From the NCBI GenBank assembly GCA_937923345.1, contig CAKZVJ010000294.1:1-32512 (forward strand): a stretch of DNA of 32,512 bases, given 5' to 3'. Below the pieces are notes generated by a model. The model ran no database searches and had not been told where the DNA came from. It worked only from the letters and a program-made list of their open reading frames with translations. The stretch comes from an uncultured Saprospiraceae bacterium. Its GTDB lineage: Bacteria > Bacteroidota > Bacteroidia > Chitinophagales > Saprospiraceae. The position numbers and the translations under genes are program-made. Positions 1,148 through 9,627 of this stretch are shown here, in pieces; positions within the stretch are counted from its first letter, which is position 1, and every line of letters starts with the position of its first letter.

Positions 1148-3400
1148 ATGGGTAAATACCCGATCATACGCCAATTAGATGCCATGGATTGCGGGGCCGC
1201 ATGTCTTGCGATGGTGAGCAGGTATCATGGTTTAGACCAGACTTTGGATGATTTGCGAAAAATTACTTCAGTAGATCTAGATGGTGTTTCCCTGTTGGAC
1301 ATTAAATCAGCAGCGGAACAACTCGGTTTTAAAAGTCTTCCGGTTAAAGTTAGTTTCTACAAGTTGCAAACAGAATTGCCTTTACCGGCTATTGCACATT
1401 GGGATCAAAATCACTTTGTAGTAGTATACGAAATAAGCGATAATCATGTGTTGATAGGTGACCCTGCTTACGGTGAAAGAAAAGTACCAAAACAGAATTT
1501 TCTAAATAAATGGCTTGCTCATGGAGACAGCGATGGAGTCGTATTATTGTTGGAGTATGAGGAGTCTGCAGCATCTAATGATGATACTAAAAGAGCTACT
1601 GAAGAATACATCAGTGATGATGAATCAAATATTACTGAAGATAGCAATGGCAGTAGGTCAAATTTGCCAGCTGCGCTGGTATCCACCTCAGCAGCAAATA
1701 GTGTATTTACACACTTGAAAGGCAATACTAAGTTTTGGTTGCATTTTATCTTTGGGAGTATCTTACTTGCTATTATTTATCTACTCTTACCTTTTGTAAT
1801 TAAGGAACTTATTGATGGCCTGCAAAAAGAAAATTTTGAATTTATACAAAACGGTTTGTTTGCATTTGCAATGCTCGGTCTTGGTAGGATTGTTTTAGAG
1901 TTGTCAAGAAATTGGATGTTTCAAGCAGAGGCAGCAGTCACCAACGCAAAGCTTGTTTCTTCTTATTTAGAAAAGCTTAGTCAACAGCCAATTCGTTTTT
2001 TTGAAAAGCGCCTAAAGTGGGACATCTTACAAAGAGTATATGACAATTATAGAGTAGGTGCATTTTTTCAGTCTTCTTCAGTACAGGCTGTATTTTTTAT
2101 TATTATGCTAGCTGCATCGAGCGTAGTGTTTTTACTTTTACATCCACATTTATTTGTAGTTTTTGTTATTGGTATTCTATTGCAAATTGCCCTCATTTTA
2201 TTTTTCAAGAGGAGAAGAATTTTTGCCAAGCAATCCATGCTAGAGAGTAGCGCTAAGGGCCAAGACACGCTATTTGAGATGATAAACGGAATTGCCGCTA
2301 TCAAATTAAATAATGCCGAAAGCTACTACCAAGGTATTTGGGAAAAGAATCAGATAGACCTGCTTACAGACAGTTTGCGTTTTCATAAAATCGATCAGTA
2401 TCAAAAGACAGGTGTTAAAGTCATAGGCTGGATTGCGGAGTTGACTATTTTTTATTTGGTTTTAAAACTTTTTGTGCAAGATGACTTCACCATGGGTGGA
2501 ATTATGGCTGTGATTTATATCTTGGCTTATACCAAGGATGCGATTATTGCCTTTTTTGAGATGATTGCGGAATATCAAGAAGTGCAACTCAGTTTTAGAA
2601 GGCTTTCTGAAGTATCTGATATCCCTACCATAGAATACAAGTTGTCAGAAAACAAACCTCTTTCTACTTTTAAAGACTTTGAGGTAAAGAATATGAGCTT
2701 CAAGTATGGAGATGTGAATAGCCCACTAGTCCTTGATGGAATCAACTTAAGCATTCCTAAGGGCAAGAAAACAGCTATTGTCGGGGTTAGCGGTAGCGGC
2801 AAAACTACCTTACTCAAACTATTGGTTGGAATGTACAAACCTAGAGAAGGAAGCGTATCGTTAGGGGGTATTCATTTGAGCGATATTGCCCCTTCGCTTT
2901 TGAATAAGAAAATGGGGATCATTTTTGAAGATGGATATATTTTTTCAGATTCGATAGCATCTAACATCACTTTAATGGAGTCTAATCCAGATACAAGACT
3001 GTTGGATAAGGCAATTAGGCTAGCTTGTTTAGATACCTTTACAGATGCTTTACCTTTAGGATTACAGACGCGTATTGGTGAGGATGGAATACGATTAAGC
3101 AAAGGTCAACAGCAACAAGTATTGCTCGCAAGGGCTTTCTATAAACAACCGGAAATTCTTTTCTTTGACGAAGCAACCAATGCATTAGACGGTATTACAG
3201 AACGTAGGCTACTCAAAAATATCAAAACTGAATTTGAAGATAAAACCACAGTCTTTGTAGCGCACCGATTGAATTCCATTCAAGATGCAGATCAAATCAT
3301 AGTTTTGCATAAAGGTGCAATCCTAGAAAAAGGTACACATGAAGAACTGTTAGCTAAAAGAGGAGCGTATTATTTGATTTTAAGAAACGATTTAGAATAA
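1148..3400 (+). CDS. Peptidase-containing ABC exporter (C39 bacteriocin/RiPP leader processing)
   Basis: This 750-residue protein has the full PCAT layout. The N-terminal C39 cysteine peptidase (1-140) has C15 in the DCGAACLAM motif, preceded by Q9, with H89 and D105 completing the triad. An acidic linker (about 138-175) follows, then a six-helix membrane domain (about 195-480) and an ATPase domain (about 510-750). In the ATPase, Walker A is GVSGSGKTT (546-554), the signature LSKGQ (650-654), Walker B ILFFDEAT (670-677) and the H-loop H706. Such proteins cut leader peptides after a double-glycine-type site and export the core peptide across the inner membrane. The Q-loop glutamine position carries E594 (IIFEDGYIF), which is unusual. 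It is the first gene of a three-gene unit; the next ATG follows its stop by 2 bp. Substrate unknown; family call is secure. Confidence 0.95.
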   Translation: MGKYPIIRQLDAMDCGAACLAMVSRYHGLDQTLDDLRKITSVDLDGVSLLDIKSAAEQLGFKSLPVKVSFYKLQTELPLPAIAHWDQNHFVVVYEISDNHVLIGDPAYGERKVPKQNFLNKWLAHGDSDGVVLLLEYEESAASNDDTKRATEEYISDDESNITEDSNGSRSNLPAALVSTSAANSVFTHLKGNTKFWLHFIFGSILLAIIYLLLPFVIKELIDGLQKENFEFIQNGLFAFAMLGLGRIVLELSRNWMFQAEAAVTNAKLVSSYLEKLSQQPIRFFEKRLKWDILQRVYDNYRVGAFFQSSSVQAVFFIIMLAASSVVFLLLHPHLFVVFVIGILLQIALILFFKRRRIFAKQSMLESSAKGQDTLFEMINGIAAIKLNNAESYYQGIWEKNQIDLLTDSLRFHKIDQYQKTGVKVIGWIAELTIFYLVLKLFVQDDFTMGGIMAVIYILAYTKDAIIAFFEMIAEYQEVQLSFRRLSEVSDIPTIEYKLSENKPLSTFKDFEVKNMSFKYGDVNSPLVLDGINLSIPKGKKTAIVGVSGSGKTTLLKLLVGMYKPREGSVSLGGIHLSDIAPSLLNKKMGIIFEDGYIFSDSIASNITLMESNPDTRLLDKAIRLACLDTFTDALPLGLQTRIGEDGIRLSKGQQQQVLLARAFYKQPEILFFDEATNALDGITERRLLKNIKTEFEDKTTVFVAHRLNSIQDADQIIVLHKGAILEKGTHEELLAKRGAYYLILRNDLE

Positions 3401-3402
3401 TT

Positions 3403-4608
3403 ATGCAGCGTTTTTTAACAGATATATTAAATGATCCTCCATATCATCTTGCTCGTATTGCCAACCTGCTTTTGCTGGTTTGTGTCGTGCTCTTAGGCAC
3501 CATATTTTTGTTCCGTACTGATAAGCATGATATTACTTTGAATTTGAGTCTTGGCTCAGAGGAAGAAGTATTTGAGAAAGGAGAGGCCCAATTAGCAGCG
3601 CGCTCTACGGTAAAGCTTTATCCACTAGTCGAGATTGGCCAAGCATTAGAAAAAGGAGACACTATATTTGCCGAGATTCCTTTTTTGCAATACCAAGAAA
3701 TGTCTAATTGGGTGAAACAACTTAAGCAAGGAAAGCTAATGCCGACGAAGGAAATGCTCAATAAATATCCGTTGCCTGCTGATATAAAAGAGAAGATGGT
3801 CGACCTAGCAAAACAAGACGCTACATCAAAAAGGGTATCGAATAATAAATTCAACCTAGAGGATGCGGATAGAATGATTAGAGTAAAAGACCAAATTACT
3901 CTGCTAGAGCAAGAAGTAAGGGACCTAGAAAAATCCATCCCTCTATTTGAAGCATTGGTCAAAACCAAGATTGCTAAATTCTTTAATGAAAGAGAGCGGT
4001 ATGAAAGAGAGGAAATAAGCCTAGAGCAACTTAATAAAGAAAAAGAAAAGGAACTAGATGCAAAAAGAGACCTTAGGCTACGAAAAGAACAATTGAAGAC
4101 CGCTAAAGGAAGGTTGTATGAATTCAATAGTGAACTAAAAAAATTACTCAAAAATGTAAAAATTCCTAAGCAGAAGGTGACGCAAGATTTAATTCCATTT
4201 GAACAGGACTTATCCAGGTCTATAATCGAATTTTTAGATGAGCAGGTAGTGCTTTCTAAACTGCGTGGAAAGGTGGCTACATTAGGTGAACTAGATAATG
4301 TCCAAGAACAAGATACCTTGTTCGTTTTAGATGGCAGTATGGTAAAAAAGAGTCGTAGTAAATCCATCATTGTAGATGCTAATACAGCTGATGTAAAGCG
4401 TATTTCTTTAAATTCAATCTCCAACATTATCCTCAAGGATGGCTCCACGGTAAAAGGAATCGTTAAAGAGTTTATAGATGATACCCAAGAAACGGGTTCA
4501 CTGCTTAGAATTGATGCAGAAGAGGAGGTCAGTTATGTAGATATAGAAGAGATAGTCCTTCCCGCAAAAAACATCAATTTTATAGAAAAGGTATTGCAGA
4601 ACTTTTAG
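3403..4608 (+). CDS. HlyD-like membrane fusion (adaptor) protein, exporter partner
   Basis: This 401-residue protein has a short cytoplasmic N-terminus and one membrane segment (about 18-37). A probable lipoyl-like half domain follows, with LVEIGQALEKGD at 75-86. A charged, leucine-rich coiled coil spans about 153-285, and a second half-domain, GKVATLGELDNVQEQDTL, lies at 289-306. This order (TM, half barrel, hairpin coiled coil, half barrel) is that of periplasmic adaptors that connect type I exporters to an outer-membrane channel. Sequence similarity to classic HlyD is weak, so the call rests on architecture and on its position 2 bp after the C39 exporter gene. No TolC-like channel gene is in the window. 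The unusually long coiled coil produces a long spurious antisense frame. Confidence 0.7.
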   Translation: MQRFLTDILNDPPYHLARIANLLLLVCVVLLGTIFLFRTDKHDITLNLSLGSEEEVFEKGEAQLAARSTVKLYPLVEIGQALEKGDTIFAEIPFLQYQEMSNWVKQLKQGKLMPTKEMLNKYPLPADIKEKMVDLAKQDATSKRVSNNKFNLEDADRMIRVKDQITLLEQEVRDLEKSIPLFEALVKTKIAKFFNERERYEREEISLEQLNKEKEKELDAKRDLRLRKEQLKTAKGRLYEFNSELKKLLKNVKIPKQKVTQDLIPFEQDLSRSIIEFLDEQVVLSKLRGKVATLGELDNVQEQDTLFVLDGSMVKKSRSKSIIVDANTADVKRISLNSISNIILKDGSTVKGIVKEFIDDTQETGSLLRIDAEEEVSYVDIEEIVLPAKNINFIEKVLQNF

Positions 4609-4616
4609 TTTTGTGT

Positions 4617-6584
4617 ATGCAATTTTCTCCTTATCTCTTATTGAGGCACCCTACCTATAACCTTACACATTTAGATGTGTTTTCCATTCTCCCTGATGAA
4701 TTCCATACGCTTGAAAAAGCAGTAGAAGAAAGAAGAAAGCACTTTCTCAAATTTATCACATCAAGAGATCTATTGCTATCTCTACCATTTTCAAGTAGAA
4801 TGGTTTATCAGGCTATACCTCATTACGAGTTTCATGCAGCGGTGAAGATTAGAAAGAAGGAAAGGCAAACCGAGCGTGCATTAATGAAGTATCTCGCTCG
4901 GATGTCCTTGAATCCAAGCCCTTTAGCTGCATTTGCTAAAAGTCAATTTGTAGACTGGCAATGGAATAGGCTCAATCCACATACTACCTACGCCCTGAGT
5001 TTATCTCTGACCCAAAGGAAGGAGTTCTTTGATTTGTGCTATTGTGATTCTGGCTTGCAAAAATATATGAAGTATAGACTTAACCCTAGCCTTCGAAGAA
5101 CAACAAATGACTTCATATACTTGCATAAAAATGAAGCAGAAGAGAGCAAAGTAGAGATTGAATCTGATCCTGAGTTCGAAGCCATGTTCTTAGCCTTGAA
5201 GGGTAAAGAGTTTACTTTTGCTCAATTTGCCCAGCTAACCAATTACGCCGTGAACGATTTTTTGGAAGCTCAACTAATAGTGCCCTCTTATCCAATTTAC
5301 GCAGCGCAAGAATTTATAACTGTGCTTATTGAAGAGATTAATTCTAGGCACAACTTATCTTTTAAACTAGAAGATATCGTCGGTATTTGCAGCGATAAGA
5401 TGTCAGATAAAGATGCAATAATTCAGCAAAAACATTGGGATACTCAGATTAAGGCATATGCAAATTCTTTGGAAGTTGCCTTGGATCATAAGCTTTATGC
5501 AGAAAGAATGTATTATCTGAATACCTATTCTCAAGAGCAGTTTTCTCAGCCATCCTTCGATAGAAAGCTTTTATCTCGTGAAGTCTTGGAGGTGCTACAG
5601 CTAGCCGATAGTGCAATTAGTAGAGAAGAAACTTCGTCGTTGCAATGGGATACAATGTATGAAGCCTCTGCTCCCTTGCGACACAATTTTGATCTTAGTA
5701 AAATAGTAATTGAGCAAAAATCAGAAGGTGAAATTCAACTTAGCATACCATCCATAAAAGAGTTAAAGAAGTATCAATCATTTGGCATCATGCTTAGCTT
5801 TTCCAATCAGGAACGACCACGTTTGATTAATGTGTCTACTCCATACGGTAAATTCTTCTCTCCAGCATTAGAACTTGCCAGTGATGAAGTAATGAATAAA
5901 CTAAAACAATGGATACAAAATACTGCCAAAAATGTAGTAAGCCTAAAAGATGACTCTTTGCATAATAAGAATAAAGCAAACGAATTCGTTGCAGAGTTGA
6001 ATAGTTTTGGCTTAGATTATCAAACTCCTATTGAAGATAGAGTTTTTTTAGATATTCATGAAAACGGGGATATAGTCAATCAGGATACTAAGGAGCCTGC
6101 ATCTTTGGTCAATTTAGGAATTGAAGATTTTAGTAACAGGTCATCATTGTACCAAAATTTGTTTAAGCATTCAGACCAATTGCCTAATATTCCAGAGCTG
6201 GTATCTGCTATTCAAAACAAGTATAGAATTATAATCAATGAAGCCGTAAGCTTTGTTCCACGACTAAGCACGAAGCATTTAATACTTGGATCTCAAAAAT
6301 GGAAGGCTACAAAAGAAGCTTTTGAATTATTTCAAAATCCAAAAGATATTCCCTTAGAACAACTCAATAGATGGAGAGAACAAATTGGTATTCCTAGAAT
6401 TGTAGAATGTTCAGTTGATGAAGGTAGATCATTTTTTATTGACTTTTATAACCCTTGGTTGGTAGATAGTTTTTTGAAATTAATTAGAAAGATGGATTCT
6501 ACATGCACATTTAGTGAATTGGGAATAGGGGATGAGCATAATAAACACCGGATATTTGAAGCTTATTTTGAGGTAAGCATATAG
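4617..6584 (+). CDS. LanB-type lanthipeptide dehydratase, glutamylation domain only
   Basis: I start this at ATG 4617 (655 residues); a TTG at 4611 is in frame two codons earlier. Several LanB N-domain landmarks are visible. LMKYLARMSLNPSPLAAFA (about 89-107) aligns with the family motif R-M-x-x-R-P-T-P-F-G-L-F. YRLNPSLRR follows at about 155. Near the C-terminus come a VPRLS / LILGSQKW / WREQIGIPR series and FFIDFYNPWLVD, the usual end of the domain. LanB enzymes use Glu-tRNA to glutamylate Ser/Thr of a precursor before glutamate elimination to dehydro-residues. The separate elimination domain (SpaB_C type) is absent, and the motif's second Arg and Thr are Asn and Ser. It may therefore be a split-LanB glutamylation subunit or a repurposed enzyme. 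Last gene of the exporter operon. Confidence 0.75.
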   Translation: MQFSPYLLLRHPTYNLTHLDVFSILPDEFHTLEKAVEERRKHFLKFITSRDLLLSLPFSSRMVYQAIPHYEFHAAVKIRKKERQTERALMKYLARMSLNPSPLAAFAKSQFVDWQWNRLNPHTTYALSLSLTQRKEFFDLCYCDSGLQKYMKYRLNPSLRRTTNDFIYLHKNEAEESKVEIESDPEFEAMFLALKGKEFTFAQFAQLTNYAVNDFLEAQLIVPSYPIYAAQEFITVLIEEINSRHNLSFKLEDIVGICSDKMSDKDAIIQQKHWDTQIKAYANSLEVALDHKLYAERMYYLNTYSQEQFSQPSFDRKLLSREVLEVLQLADSAISREETSSLQWDTMYEASAPLRHNFDLSKIVIEQKSEGEIQLSIPSIKELKKYQSFGIMLSFSNQERPRLINVSTPYGKFFSPALELASDEVMNKLKQWIQNTAKNVVSLKDDSLHNKNKANEFVAELNSFGLDYQTPIEDRVFLDIHENGDIVNQDTKEPASLVNLGIEDFSNRSSLYQNLFKHSDQLPNIPELVSAIQNKYRIIINEAVSFVPRLSTKHLILGSQKWKATKEAFELFQNPKDIPLEQLNRWREQIGIPRIVECSVDEGRSFFIDFYNPWLVDSFLKLIRKMDSTCTFSELGIGDEHNKHRIFEAYFEVSI

Positions 6585-6609: not shown

Positions 6610-7293
6610 TTATCGTTTTTCTTTCAACTGCCATAGTTCTTGCTCCTCATCTGTATAGCCAAGGATTCCCATGCTATCATTGTAGTATAAGGTGACGATT
6701 GGAGAAACAAATTCGGTCAATTCTACATTTTGAAACTCTTTATTAATAAAGAATTTTTCTCCAATATTGCGAGTTGTTTCATATAAAGGAGCTGGATAAT
6801 CTTTGATATCTATTACTTTACGAAATACTAATCGTCTATCAATTTTTGTATTTCTGGTATCCTCGTAAAATATCTTCAAGACATCGGCATTATACATTTG
6901 ATCTACCTCGGGAAAATATGGTTTTGATTCCTTTATTATCGTGAATTCATATCCGACTTCTGATCTAATTTTGGTAGTAAAACTTTCTACTTGATAGCAG
7001 AATATTGTTGAGTCTCCCCGTGTAAAGGTAGCTTCATCATTCAAGTATTCGGATTCTCCGATGGAGAATACTAGTTCGATACCTAAAGCATTCATGAAAA
7101 CTATTTCTGAATATTCTTCTAGAGTGTTGACACTTCTACTATTTGGCGCTATTGTAAAACCTTCTAGAATCACATCACAATTTTCTTTACTACCACCAAC
7201 AGCATCATCACTAAAATCGTCATTTTTACATGCAGACATAGCGATTAAGAGCAGTAAAATATAAATAATATGTAATGTGTTCTGTAGCGTCAC
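6610..7293 (-). CDS. Hypothetical lipoprotein
   Basis: This 227-residue protein begins with a hydrophobic signal segment (about 8-20) and a lipobox, IAMSAC, with the lipidated cysteine at 22, followed by a DD-rich linker. The mature part has two further cysteines and alternating beta-like segments, with no domain I recognise. It converges on the LanB gene with 25 bp between the stops, and it lies inside the repeat-bracketed cassette. Bacteroidota often place small immunity-like or surface lipoproteins next to secretion loci, but nothing in the sequence shows that role here. A real gene is likely from its length, signal and ordinary composition. Confidence 0.7.
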   Translation of the reverse strand: MTLQNTLHIIYILLLLIAMSACKNDDFSDDAVGGSKENCDVILEGFTIAPNSRSVNTLEEYSEIVFMNALGIELVFSIGESEYLNDEATFTRGDSTIFCYQVESFTTKIRSEVGYEFTIIKESKPYFPEVDQMYNADVLKIFYEDTRNTKIDRRLVFRKVIDIKDYPAPLYETTRNIGEKFFINKEFQNVELTEFVSPIVTLYYNDSMGILGYTDEEQELWQLKEKR

Positions 7294-8170: not shown

Positions 8171-9568
8171 TTATAGATGAATAACCTCTCCGTACGCCGC
8201 CGCGGCAGCTTCCATAACCGCCTCACTCATAGTGGGGTGAGGATGTACAGTTTTTACGATTTCTAGACCAGTAGTCTCTAACTTTCTAGCTGCTACTACT
8301 TCGGCAATCATTTCAGTCACATTGTAACCGACCATGTGAGCCCCTAAAAGCTCTCCATACTTTTCATCAAAGATTACTTTTACAAAGCCTTCTTTGGCTC
8401 CAGCTGCACTTGCTTTGCCAGAAGCACTAAATGGAAACTTTCCAACTTTGATTTTATACCCTTGTTCTTTTGCTTGCGCCTCAGTATATCCTACTGATGC
8501 TACCTCAGGTACACAATAGGTACAGGATGGGATATTGTTATAGTCTAATGGCTCAGGGTGATGACCTGCTATTTTTTCTGCACAAATTATCCCTTCTGCA
8601 GTGGCTACGTGAGCAAGTGCAGCACCAGCTACAATATCTCCAATAGCATATATTCCTGGAATATTGGTTTGGTAATACTTATCTACACTTACTAGTCCTC
8701 TATCTGTTTTAATACCTAATGTCTCAAGACCAATATTTTCTGTATTTGGGCTAACACCTACTGCTGACAAAACTACATCACACTTGATTTCTTCTACAGC
8801 ACCCGTTTTGTTGTTCTTCGTAGTTACCACACAGCCTTTGCCGCTGGTGTTTACAGATTCTACGGCTGTGTTAGCAAGAATATTTATTCCTTTCTTCTTG
8901 AATACTTTTGTCAATTCTTTACTGACATCCTTATCTTCTCTTGGTACTAATCCCTGCTCGAGGTACTCTACCAAAGTTACCTCTGTACCTATGGCATTGT
9001 AAAAATAAGCAAACTCAACACCAATAGCTCCTCCACCAACTACGACCATCTTCTTAGGCTTCTTTTCAAGAGTCATCGCTTTACGATAGCCAATTATCTT
9101 TTCTCCATCAATTGGGAGATTGGGAAGCTGTTTAGCACGCCCACCAGTGGCTAGTATAATATGATCTGCATCATAAGTAGTGGTTTTGTTCGCCTCATCT
9201 TTTACCTCTACTTTTTTACCACGTTGTAATTTACCTACCCCCATGATTACATCGATCTTGTTCTTTTTCATTAAGAACTGGATCCCTTTGCTCATACCGT
9301 TGGCCACATCTCTGCTACGCTTCACCATGCCATTAAAATCGGCTTTTACTCCACTTACATTGATGCCATAGTCCTCACTATGATTGATGTACTCAAATAC
9401 TTGTGCACTCTTTAGTAATGCCTTTGTTGGGATACATCCCCAATTTAAGCATATACCACCCAATGACTCCCTCTCGACAATAGCTACCTTCTTGCCTAAT
9501 TGAGCGGAACGAATAGCAGCTGGATATCCGCCAGGACCGCTTCCGATTACTATAACATCGTATTTCAT
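8171..9568 (-). CDS. lpdA: Dihydrolipoyl dehydrogenase (E3)
   Basis: This FAD flavoprotein reoxidises dihydrolipoamide with NAD+ in pyruvate, 2-oxoglutarate or branched-chain dehydrogenase complexes and glycine cleavage. The chosen ATG at 9568 gives 465 residues, the family norm. The frame could open 15 codons earlier, but that extension is not conserved-looking and covers the promoter. Landmarks are FAD fold GSGPGG (9-14), redox disulfide C40 and C45 in CLNWGC, NAD fold GGGAIG, the second FAD motif AIGDIVAGAALAH, and the base H444 with E449 in HPHPTMSE. No other complex subunits lie nearby, so this is a stand-alone E3 shared by several complexes. The identification is secure. Confidence 0.97.
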   Translation of the reverse strand: MKYDVIVIGSGPGGYPAAIRSAQLGKKVAIVERESLGGICLNWGCIPTKALLKSAQVFEYINHSEDYGINVSGVKADFNGMVKRSRDVANGMSKGIQFLMKKNKIDVIMGVGKLQRGKKVEVKDEANKTTTYDADHIILATGGRAKQLPNLPIDGEKIIGYRKAMTLEKKPKKMVVVGGGAIGVEFAYFYNAIGTEVTLVEYLEQGLVPREDKDVSKELTKVFKKKGINILANTAVESVNTSGKGCVVTTKNNKTGAVEEIKCDVVLSAVGVSPNTENIGLETLGIKTDRGLVSVDKYYQTNIPGIYAIGDIVAGAALAHVATAEGIICAEKIAGHHPEPLDYNNIPSCTYCVPEVASVGYTEAQAKEQGYKIKVGKFPFSASGKASAAGAKEGFVKVIFDEKYGELLGAHMVGYNVTEMIAEVVAARKLETTGLEIVKTVHPHPTMSEAVMEAAAAAYGEVIHL

Positions 9569-9592
9569 ATGATTATTTTTATGATTTGCCCG

Positions 9593-9627
9593 CAAATATA
9601 GCATATTAACCACGACTTTACGTCAAA
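9593..9627 (-). promoter_or_regulatory. Promoter of lpdA
   Basis: On the minus strand, TTTG (9624-9627) and TATATTTG (9593-9600) are separated by 23 bases. This matches the Bacteroidota -33 TTTG / -7 TAnnTTTG promoter form at the long end of its spacing range. It predicts a start about 20 bases before the ATG at 9568 and argues against the upstream in-frame starts. Confidence 0.5.

Follow-up and report, generated by a model that had tools for sequence, protein, structure and literature searches.

A C39 exporter operon with a divergent stand-alone LanB glutamylation domain in Saprospiraceae, a candidate export arm of a dispersed class I RiPP-type system

Class I lanthipeptide precursors of Bacteroidetes with double-glycine leaders and a C39 protease encoded in the cluster have been published, as have split LanB enzymes (PMC7268733), and mining for ribosomally synthesized and post-translationally modified peptides (RiPPs) expects the precursor, the enzymes, and the exporter in one cluster. 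Here, we describe an operon of an uncultured Saprospiraceae bacterium, the three genes of which encode a C39 exporter, an HlyD-like adaptor, and LanB-N, a stand-alone protein with a LanB glutamylation domain. The window, i.e., the whole stretch of DNA analyzed (32,512 nt), is contig C294 (CAKZVJ010000294.1) of a draft genome of 4.47 Mb (GCA_937923345.1, hereafter G000; 335 contigs, 91% complete). All genomes of the genus are incomplete drafts, so that absences are soft, and the three named congeners are metagenome-assembled genomes (MAGs). We propose, with a probability of roughly 0.45, that the operon forms the export arm of a class I RiPP-type maturation system that is split and dispersed and acts on a double-glycine peptide encoded at a distant regulator locus. 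Since C39-containing class I loci and split LanB enzymes have been published, the novelty lies in the scattering and not in the kind of system. By comparison with the published clusters (PMC7268733), the parts here are scattered genome-wide and co-occur, LanC is apparently absent, conserved residues have been lost in the genus, and a family of regulator-linked double-glycine peptides is present.

The operon is formed by three plus-strand open reading frames (ORFs; 1148-3400, 3403-4608, and 4611/4617-6584) separated by gaps of 2 bp and then 2 or 8 bp, as the first-pass annotation of this DNA had reported; the third gene starts at either TTG 4611 or ATG 4617, and the ATG start was adopted. The gene order is conserved in three other congeneric Saprospiraceae MAGs (profile search, alignment A1), with identities of 58-69% for the exporter, 34-42% for the adaptor, and 44-52% over the full length for LanB-N, and this intact, co-linear arrangement argues that the operon is neither a chance assembly nor a product of decay. 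A search of the genome contigs with LanB-N as a single protein query retrieved no relative. Neither PF14028 (elimination domain), PF05147 (LanC), nor a small double-glycine ORF was seen in the operon flanks in G000, and no ORF with a double-glycine leader was seen in the flanks of the four congeners that carry the operon, so that a precursor adjoining the operon was rejected. The absences noted earlier at this locus thus stand, yet classical class I loci differ less from it than was claimed then, because double-glycine leaders with C39 proteases and split LanB enzymes were already on record (PMC7268733).

The first gene (1148-3400, plus strand) encodes a C39 peptidase-containing ATP-binding cassette (ABC) exporter (PCAT) of 750 aa, recognized by Pfam domains, sequence motifs, and congener orthologues. 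It combines a C39 domain (PF03412, E=1e-37) with a fused transmembrane domain (PF00664) and nucleotide-binding domain (PF00005). The C39 residues Q9, C15, H89, and D105 are present, so the catalytic triad (C15, H89, and D105) is intact, as had been noted, and the ABC motifs are preserved as well (Walker A at aa 546 and the signature LSKGQ at aa 650). The exporter is thus predicted to cleave double-glycine leaders, and a candidate substrate was found, as described below. The second gene (3403-4608, plus strand) encodes a membrane-fusion adaptor of the HlyD/EmrA/MacA type (401 aa), assigned from its model, Foldseek, and hhalign. Although the Pfam search gave no HlyD match, the AlphaFold2 (AF2) model (predicted local distance difference test, pLDDT, 75) matches EmrA (1e-12), MacA, and HlyD in Foldseek, and the adaptor profile aligns with those of HlyD adaptors from related operons of the family (97.8%, hhalign). 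A single N-terminal transmembrane segment, a long coiled coil forming the hairpin, and the lipoyl/beta-barrel fold agree with the HlyD-like adaptor originally suggested.

The third gene (4617-6584, plus strand) encodes LanB-N, a divergent protein of 655 aa identified by PF04738, Foldseek, and its congeners. It scores 47.4 bits against PF04738 (Lant_dehydr_N; cut-off 28), and the top 11 PDB matches of its model are all class I dehydratases (NisB, MadB, TbtB, MibB, and GodF; Foldseek); a LanB glutamylation fold on its own polypeptide, predicted at the outset and to be checked against NisB and TbtB, was therefore recovered. The AF2 model is poor overall (pLDDT 48) because the alignment was limited to four sequences, and it yields low TM-scores and unreadable residue geometry. 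Its best-predicted part (aa 130-290) includes a strand-strand-strand-helix-helix-helix segment (aa 150-225; 5064-5291, plus strand; pLDDT about 60-89), the order of which suggests the winged helix of a leader-binding RiPP recognition element (RRE). The only solved relatives retrieved by the family LanB-N profile are TbtB (E=4e-53) and GodF, which makes the protein LanB-B-like.

The residue state of LanB-N was assessed at 49 positions conserved in at least 17 of 19 other LanB-N proteins (all from Saprospiraceae except one, which belongs to the same order). Across the four LanB-N congeners, 25 of these positions are kept in all, 15 are replaced in all, and 9 are mixed. The retained residues R10, Y92, R95, and S101 align with NisB R14, Y80, R83, and T89, which matter for dehydration (PMC4341554). 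The replacements include K99 to N (the position of NisB R87), and E301/D302 to L/N; in addition, P stands in place of R416, R559 has become S/Y/H/M, and E/Q/T/K is found at position 597, with which a Phe of the relatives aligns. Some of the lost residues, those at 559 and 597 among them, are invariant in the 19 other proteins. Positions 559 and 597 align with Arg746 and Phe786 of TbtB (PDB sequence numbering), an Arg-Phe pair that contacts adenine in that enzyme (PMC11962472); the pair was identified by alignment and by spacing (40 residues, equal to that of Arg715/Phe755 in BhaB), not read from a structure. Conserved residues of glutamyl-tRNA binding and transfer are accordingly replaced in the protein encoded in the window (by N99, P416, S559, and E597), and, judging by these substitutions, LanB-N of this genus probably does not work as a normal glutamyl-tRNA dehydratase half. 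A tagging device using Glu-tRNA chemistry, one of the possibilities raised by the first-pass annotation, is disfavored for this copy because the residues aligned with the tRNA-adenine-binding pair are lost.

The elimination half (PF14028, LanB-C) is encoded as a separate protein elsewhere in the same genome (G000:C47:1848-2573), between trmD and a deoxynucleoside kinase gene, and the LanB-C genes of the congeners have the same setting. LanB-C of the genus lacks the R, Y, and H of the N-terminal motif FfIRYxxxxxHxRxR, and the RYG-like and H..NR motifs are kept. The parallel loss in both halves and the fixation of the same new residues at several positions in four species favor a changed role over random decay. 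If the operon were what is left of a decaying class I lanthipeptide cluster, this would account for the locus having neither LanC nor a precursor nor an elimination domain and for the conserved residues lost from LanB-N, but the genes are full-length, stop-free, and co-linear in four species (44-69% identity for the exporter and LanB-N), new residues are fixed at several of the lost positions (N99, L301, N302, and P416), and dispersal is a common arrangement among the family genomes; this explanation was rejected on conservation and we consider it very improbable.

Two further explanations concern the chemistry of LanB-N. It could still be an active glutamyl-tRNA transferase that, together with the distant LanB-C, dehydrates a core Ser such as Ser+1 of the regulator-linked peptide, giving a ring-free signal with a dehydrated or pyruvyl-capped N-terminus. 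The residues aligned with NisB R14, Y80, R83, and T89, the continued presence of LanB-C, and the invariance of Ser+1 in the four LanB-N congeners and not in G001 and G003 agree with such activity, but all four congeners have other residues at R416, at the NisB R87 position, and at the positions aligned with the adenine-contacting Arg/Phe, and the LanB-C motif is without its R, Y, and H, which makes it quite unlikely. A LanB-N acting like the peptide aminoacyl-tRNA ligases (PEARLs), which would extend the C-terminus of a peptide by an amino acid taken from aminoacyl-tRNA, has hardly any chance in our estimate: a glutamylation-like domain without an elimination domain is typical of PEARLs (PMC11962472), but the family profile matches TbtB (4e-53) and GodF and no PEARL structure, the elimination half co-occurs, and the nucleotide-contacting Arg and Phe are gone.

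Stand-alone LanB-N was found in 34, LanB-C in 36, and both in 27 of the 248 family genomes, although profile-based LanB-N calls may miss divergent copies. LanB-C occurs in 27 of the 34 LanB-N carriers vs. 9 of the 214 non-carriers (Fisher 4e-22). In 22 of the 27 co-occurring genomes the two halves lie on different contigs, several of which are hundreds of kb long, a separation that in draft assemblies denotes dispersal rather than true distance. About a tenth of the family genomes sampled thus have a split class I dehydratase with its parts dispersed on the chromosome. Nine genomes (G020, G026, G077, G094, G102, G107, G164, G213, and G223) carry the C39-HlyD-LanB-N cassette without LanC, LanB-C, or a precursor. 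A complete clustered version with a double-glycine precursor, LanB-N, C39 exporter, HlyD, LanB-C, and LanC is present in G213:C50 (L152:6860-18000), so both clustered and dispersed layouts occur in the family. No PF05147 match was obtained in the six congeners, which are draft genomes. These observations support the view that the operon is part of a dispersed split LanB system with parts elsewhere in the genome, which had been among the initial suggestions; a new RiPP class, also suggested, is not established by the evidence.

Several observations from the same searches are recorded here. Stand-alone PF14028 proteins without a detected LanB-N occur in nine genomes (G003, G063, G074, G089, G100, G119, G173, G188, and G243). 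The G020 cassette has a gene for a 161-aa lipoprotein-like product between HlyD and LanB-N (L017:7185-7670), and G047:C412 (L048:2403-2636) encodes a precursor with a score of 43.4 bits against the NCBIfam model of pinensin-family lanthipeptides, above the cut-off of that model.

The proposed search for small double-glycine frames, negative near the operon in four congeners, led to a distant locus. The NCBIfam leader models NF038153 and TIGR04149, applied to 11 genomes, gave no clear match in the own genome, these models not being exhaustive; weak TIGR04149 matches in G005 (E=0.003) and G004 (0.18) pointed to a regulator-linked peptide. In the own genome this is a 45-aa double-glycine peptide (MGKLVKLQDLKKDLFVLDLVDMQKIKGG/SKRSFFWFGGWGGTVPH; G000:C197, L105:5628-5765), encoded between the genes for a LytTR response regulator and a histidine kinase with tetratricopeptide repeats (TPRs). 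Each of the six congeners, of which the own genome is one, has the peptide, with the cores SKRSFFWFGGWGGTVPH (own), SKRAFFWFGGWGGTVPH, SKRSFFWFGGWGGMVPH, and SKRSFCWFGGWGGMVPH in those with LanB-N, and QKKSFFWFGGCRGFVPQ and RKKVFFWFGGCRGIVPQ in the two without detected LanB-N. Its ratio of nonsynonymous to synonymous substitution rates (dN/dS) of about 0.05-0.2 among the four LanB-N congeners identifies it as a real gene. The regulator locus is present in 120 of the 248 family genomes, and nearly all of the 112 sampled loci encode a member of this double-glycine family (consensus near MGKSKKNLDDLKKDLKTLKKDDMKKIVGG/KKWNNGCGGIVPQ), with a consensus core that ends in WNxxCGGI[VL]PQ regardless of the presence of LanB-N in the genome.

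The order of response regulator, peptide, and histidine kinase genes, seen in the congeners and across the family, reproduces the adjacency of ComCDE. The kinase combines TPR repeats with a LytS-type kinase domain, and no membrane segment was detected in five kinases of the locus (maximum Kyte-Doolittle average 0.6-1.1), so that it does not qualify as a membrane receptor. In our literature library, which is incomplete, no earlier description was found of a Bacteroidota double-glycine peptide encoded between a TPR kinase and a LytTR regulator. A second type of double-glycine peptide lies beside a different TPR-type kinase in G020 and G026 (L111:5456-7936 and L049:1-1566), and the second-type kinase product of G020 has a hydrophobic segment; this suggests several peptide-kinase pairs per genome.

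The link between the operon and the regulator-linked peptide is tentative: it draws on the phyletic pattern and on the Ser/Thr enrichment of the cores, and none of the four observations that follow is decisive. The regulator locus is present in 30 of the 34 LanB-N carriers vs. 90 of the 214 other genomes (p=4e-7). The mean number of core Ser/Thr is 3.24 with dispersed LanB-N vs. 1.19 (genus-level p=6e-6), and the cores of G024 and G178, in which LanB-N is clustered with LanB-C, have none. Five of the six congeners showed no C39 exporter type besides that of the window, the remaining types being patchy, and the C39 loci read in the genus had no other precursor or double-glycine peptide nearby.

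Several points weigh against the proposed explanation. The Ser/Thr association falls to p=0.065-0.087 on the kinase tree, so that shared ancestry explains much of the effect. The peptide occurs in many genomes without LanB-N, and thus it has no need of this protein. The core of G003, which has LanB-C and the window-type exporter, contains no Ser/Thr; this genome was rejected as a clean LanB-N-negative control, its contig ending right after the adaptor gene. No upstream (promoter) motif is common to the operon and the peptide locus. The retained R10, Y92, R95, and S101 may leave room for residual tRNA chemistry in LanB-N. Finally, the own genome contains two more orphan pairs of a C39 exporter and an HlyD adaptor (L097:6039-9545 and L098:6771-10145) with no visible precursor, which may be alternative exporters of the peptide. 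The split LanB and the exporter might therefore mature another, unlinked precursor while the regulator-linked peptide leaves through a different C39 exporter. The LanB-N-free genomes with the peptide, the two orphan exporters, and the lack of a clear own-genome match to the two non-exhaustive leader models are compatible with such an arrangement, but the window-type exporter being the sole type observed in five of the six congeners, the lack of other double-glycine peptides near the C39 loci read in the genus, and the Ser/Thr pattern of the cores favor the regulator-linked peptide, and we regard an unlinked precursor as the less likely case.

In the mechanism that we infer for leader binding, cleavage, export, and signalling, LanB-N would bind the leader of the regulator-linked peptide through its RRE-like winged helix and pass the peptide, modified or not, to the C39 domain, which would cut after the double glycine; the exporter and the adaptor would then release a 17-residue core. 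The released peptide could be a signal read by the cytosolic TPR kinase and the LytTR regulator, either following its uptake or ahead of its export. Dehydration of the core Ser/Thr would be expected in most Saprospiraceae whose dispersed LanB halves are intact. Since both halves have lost conserved motif residues in the present genus, its LanB-N most likely acts as a leader-binding escort, or has a changed chemistry, and is not a normal glutamyl-tRNA transferase. More tentatively still, the three loci could constitute a widespread pheromone system of Saprospiraceae, with a new double-glycine family, a soluble TPR kinase that senses it, and a C39 exporter whose operon carries one LanB half, the other half being elsewhere; in the genus, the half in the operon would have turned from a tRNA-dependent enzyme into an escort.

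Downstream of the operon, a convergent gene (6610-7293, minus strand) encodes a lipoprotein with no assigned family (40-45% identity in L012-L014; no Pfam or NCBIfam match). It is a conserved neighbor, in this orientation, in all four congeners, and at most a putative member of the system. The dihydrolipoamide dehydrogenase gene lpdA (8171-9613, minus strand; Pfam) is a syntenic landmark in the congeners and lies outside the system. It is also located near LanB-N in four further family genomes (G020, G150, G134, and G094), so that the locus looks vertically inherited rather than a mobile cluster.

With the dehydratase scattered and its probable substrate at a third place, cluster-based tools would call each piece an orphan. 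If the proposed system is real, the peptide family gives an environmentally common bacterial family a testable peptide-signalling system, and the genus may show how an enzyme that depends on tRNA can be put to new use in leader binding.

The known systems share different parts of this arrangement. Split class I dehydratases (LanB-B type; TbtB/TbtC, GodF/GodG, and the split LanB of pinensins) include the only solved relatives found by profile, TbtB and GodF; in contrast to them, the halves here are far apart and not clustered with the precursor, LanB-N of the window is without several conserved residues, and LanC was not found. PEARLs (TglB, BhaB, and AmmB), for which the positions of the ATP-grasp residues are known (PMC11962472), likewise have a glutamylation-like domain without a fused elimination domain, whereas here the elimination half is in the genome and the best profile matches are TbtB and GodF. 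ComC/ComD/ComE with ComAB also place a double-glycine peptide beside a LytTR regulator and a histidine kinase, with a C39 exporter in the genome, but the kinase here has TPR repeats and is a soluble and not a membrane protein, the exporter gene lies at a separate locus beside a LanB half, and signalling is a prediction. The class I clusters of Bacteroidetes (PMC7268733; G213:C50, L152) hold a C39 exporter, an HlyD adaptor, and LanB-N together, as the operon does, and have double-glycine leaders, as the candidate peptide does; unlike them, the operon locus has no precursor, LanC, or elimination domain, and lpdA is syntenic with it in several genera, a sign of vertical inheritance.

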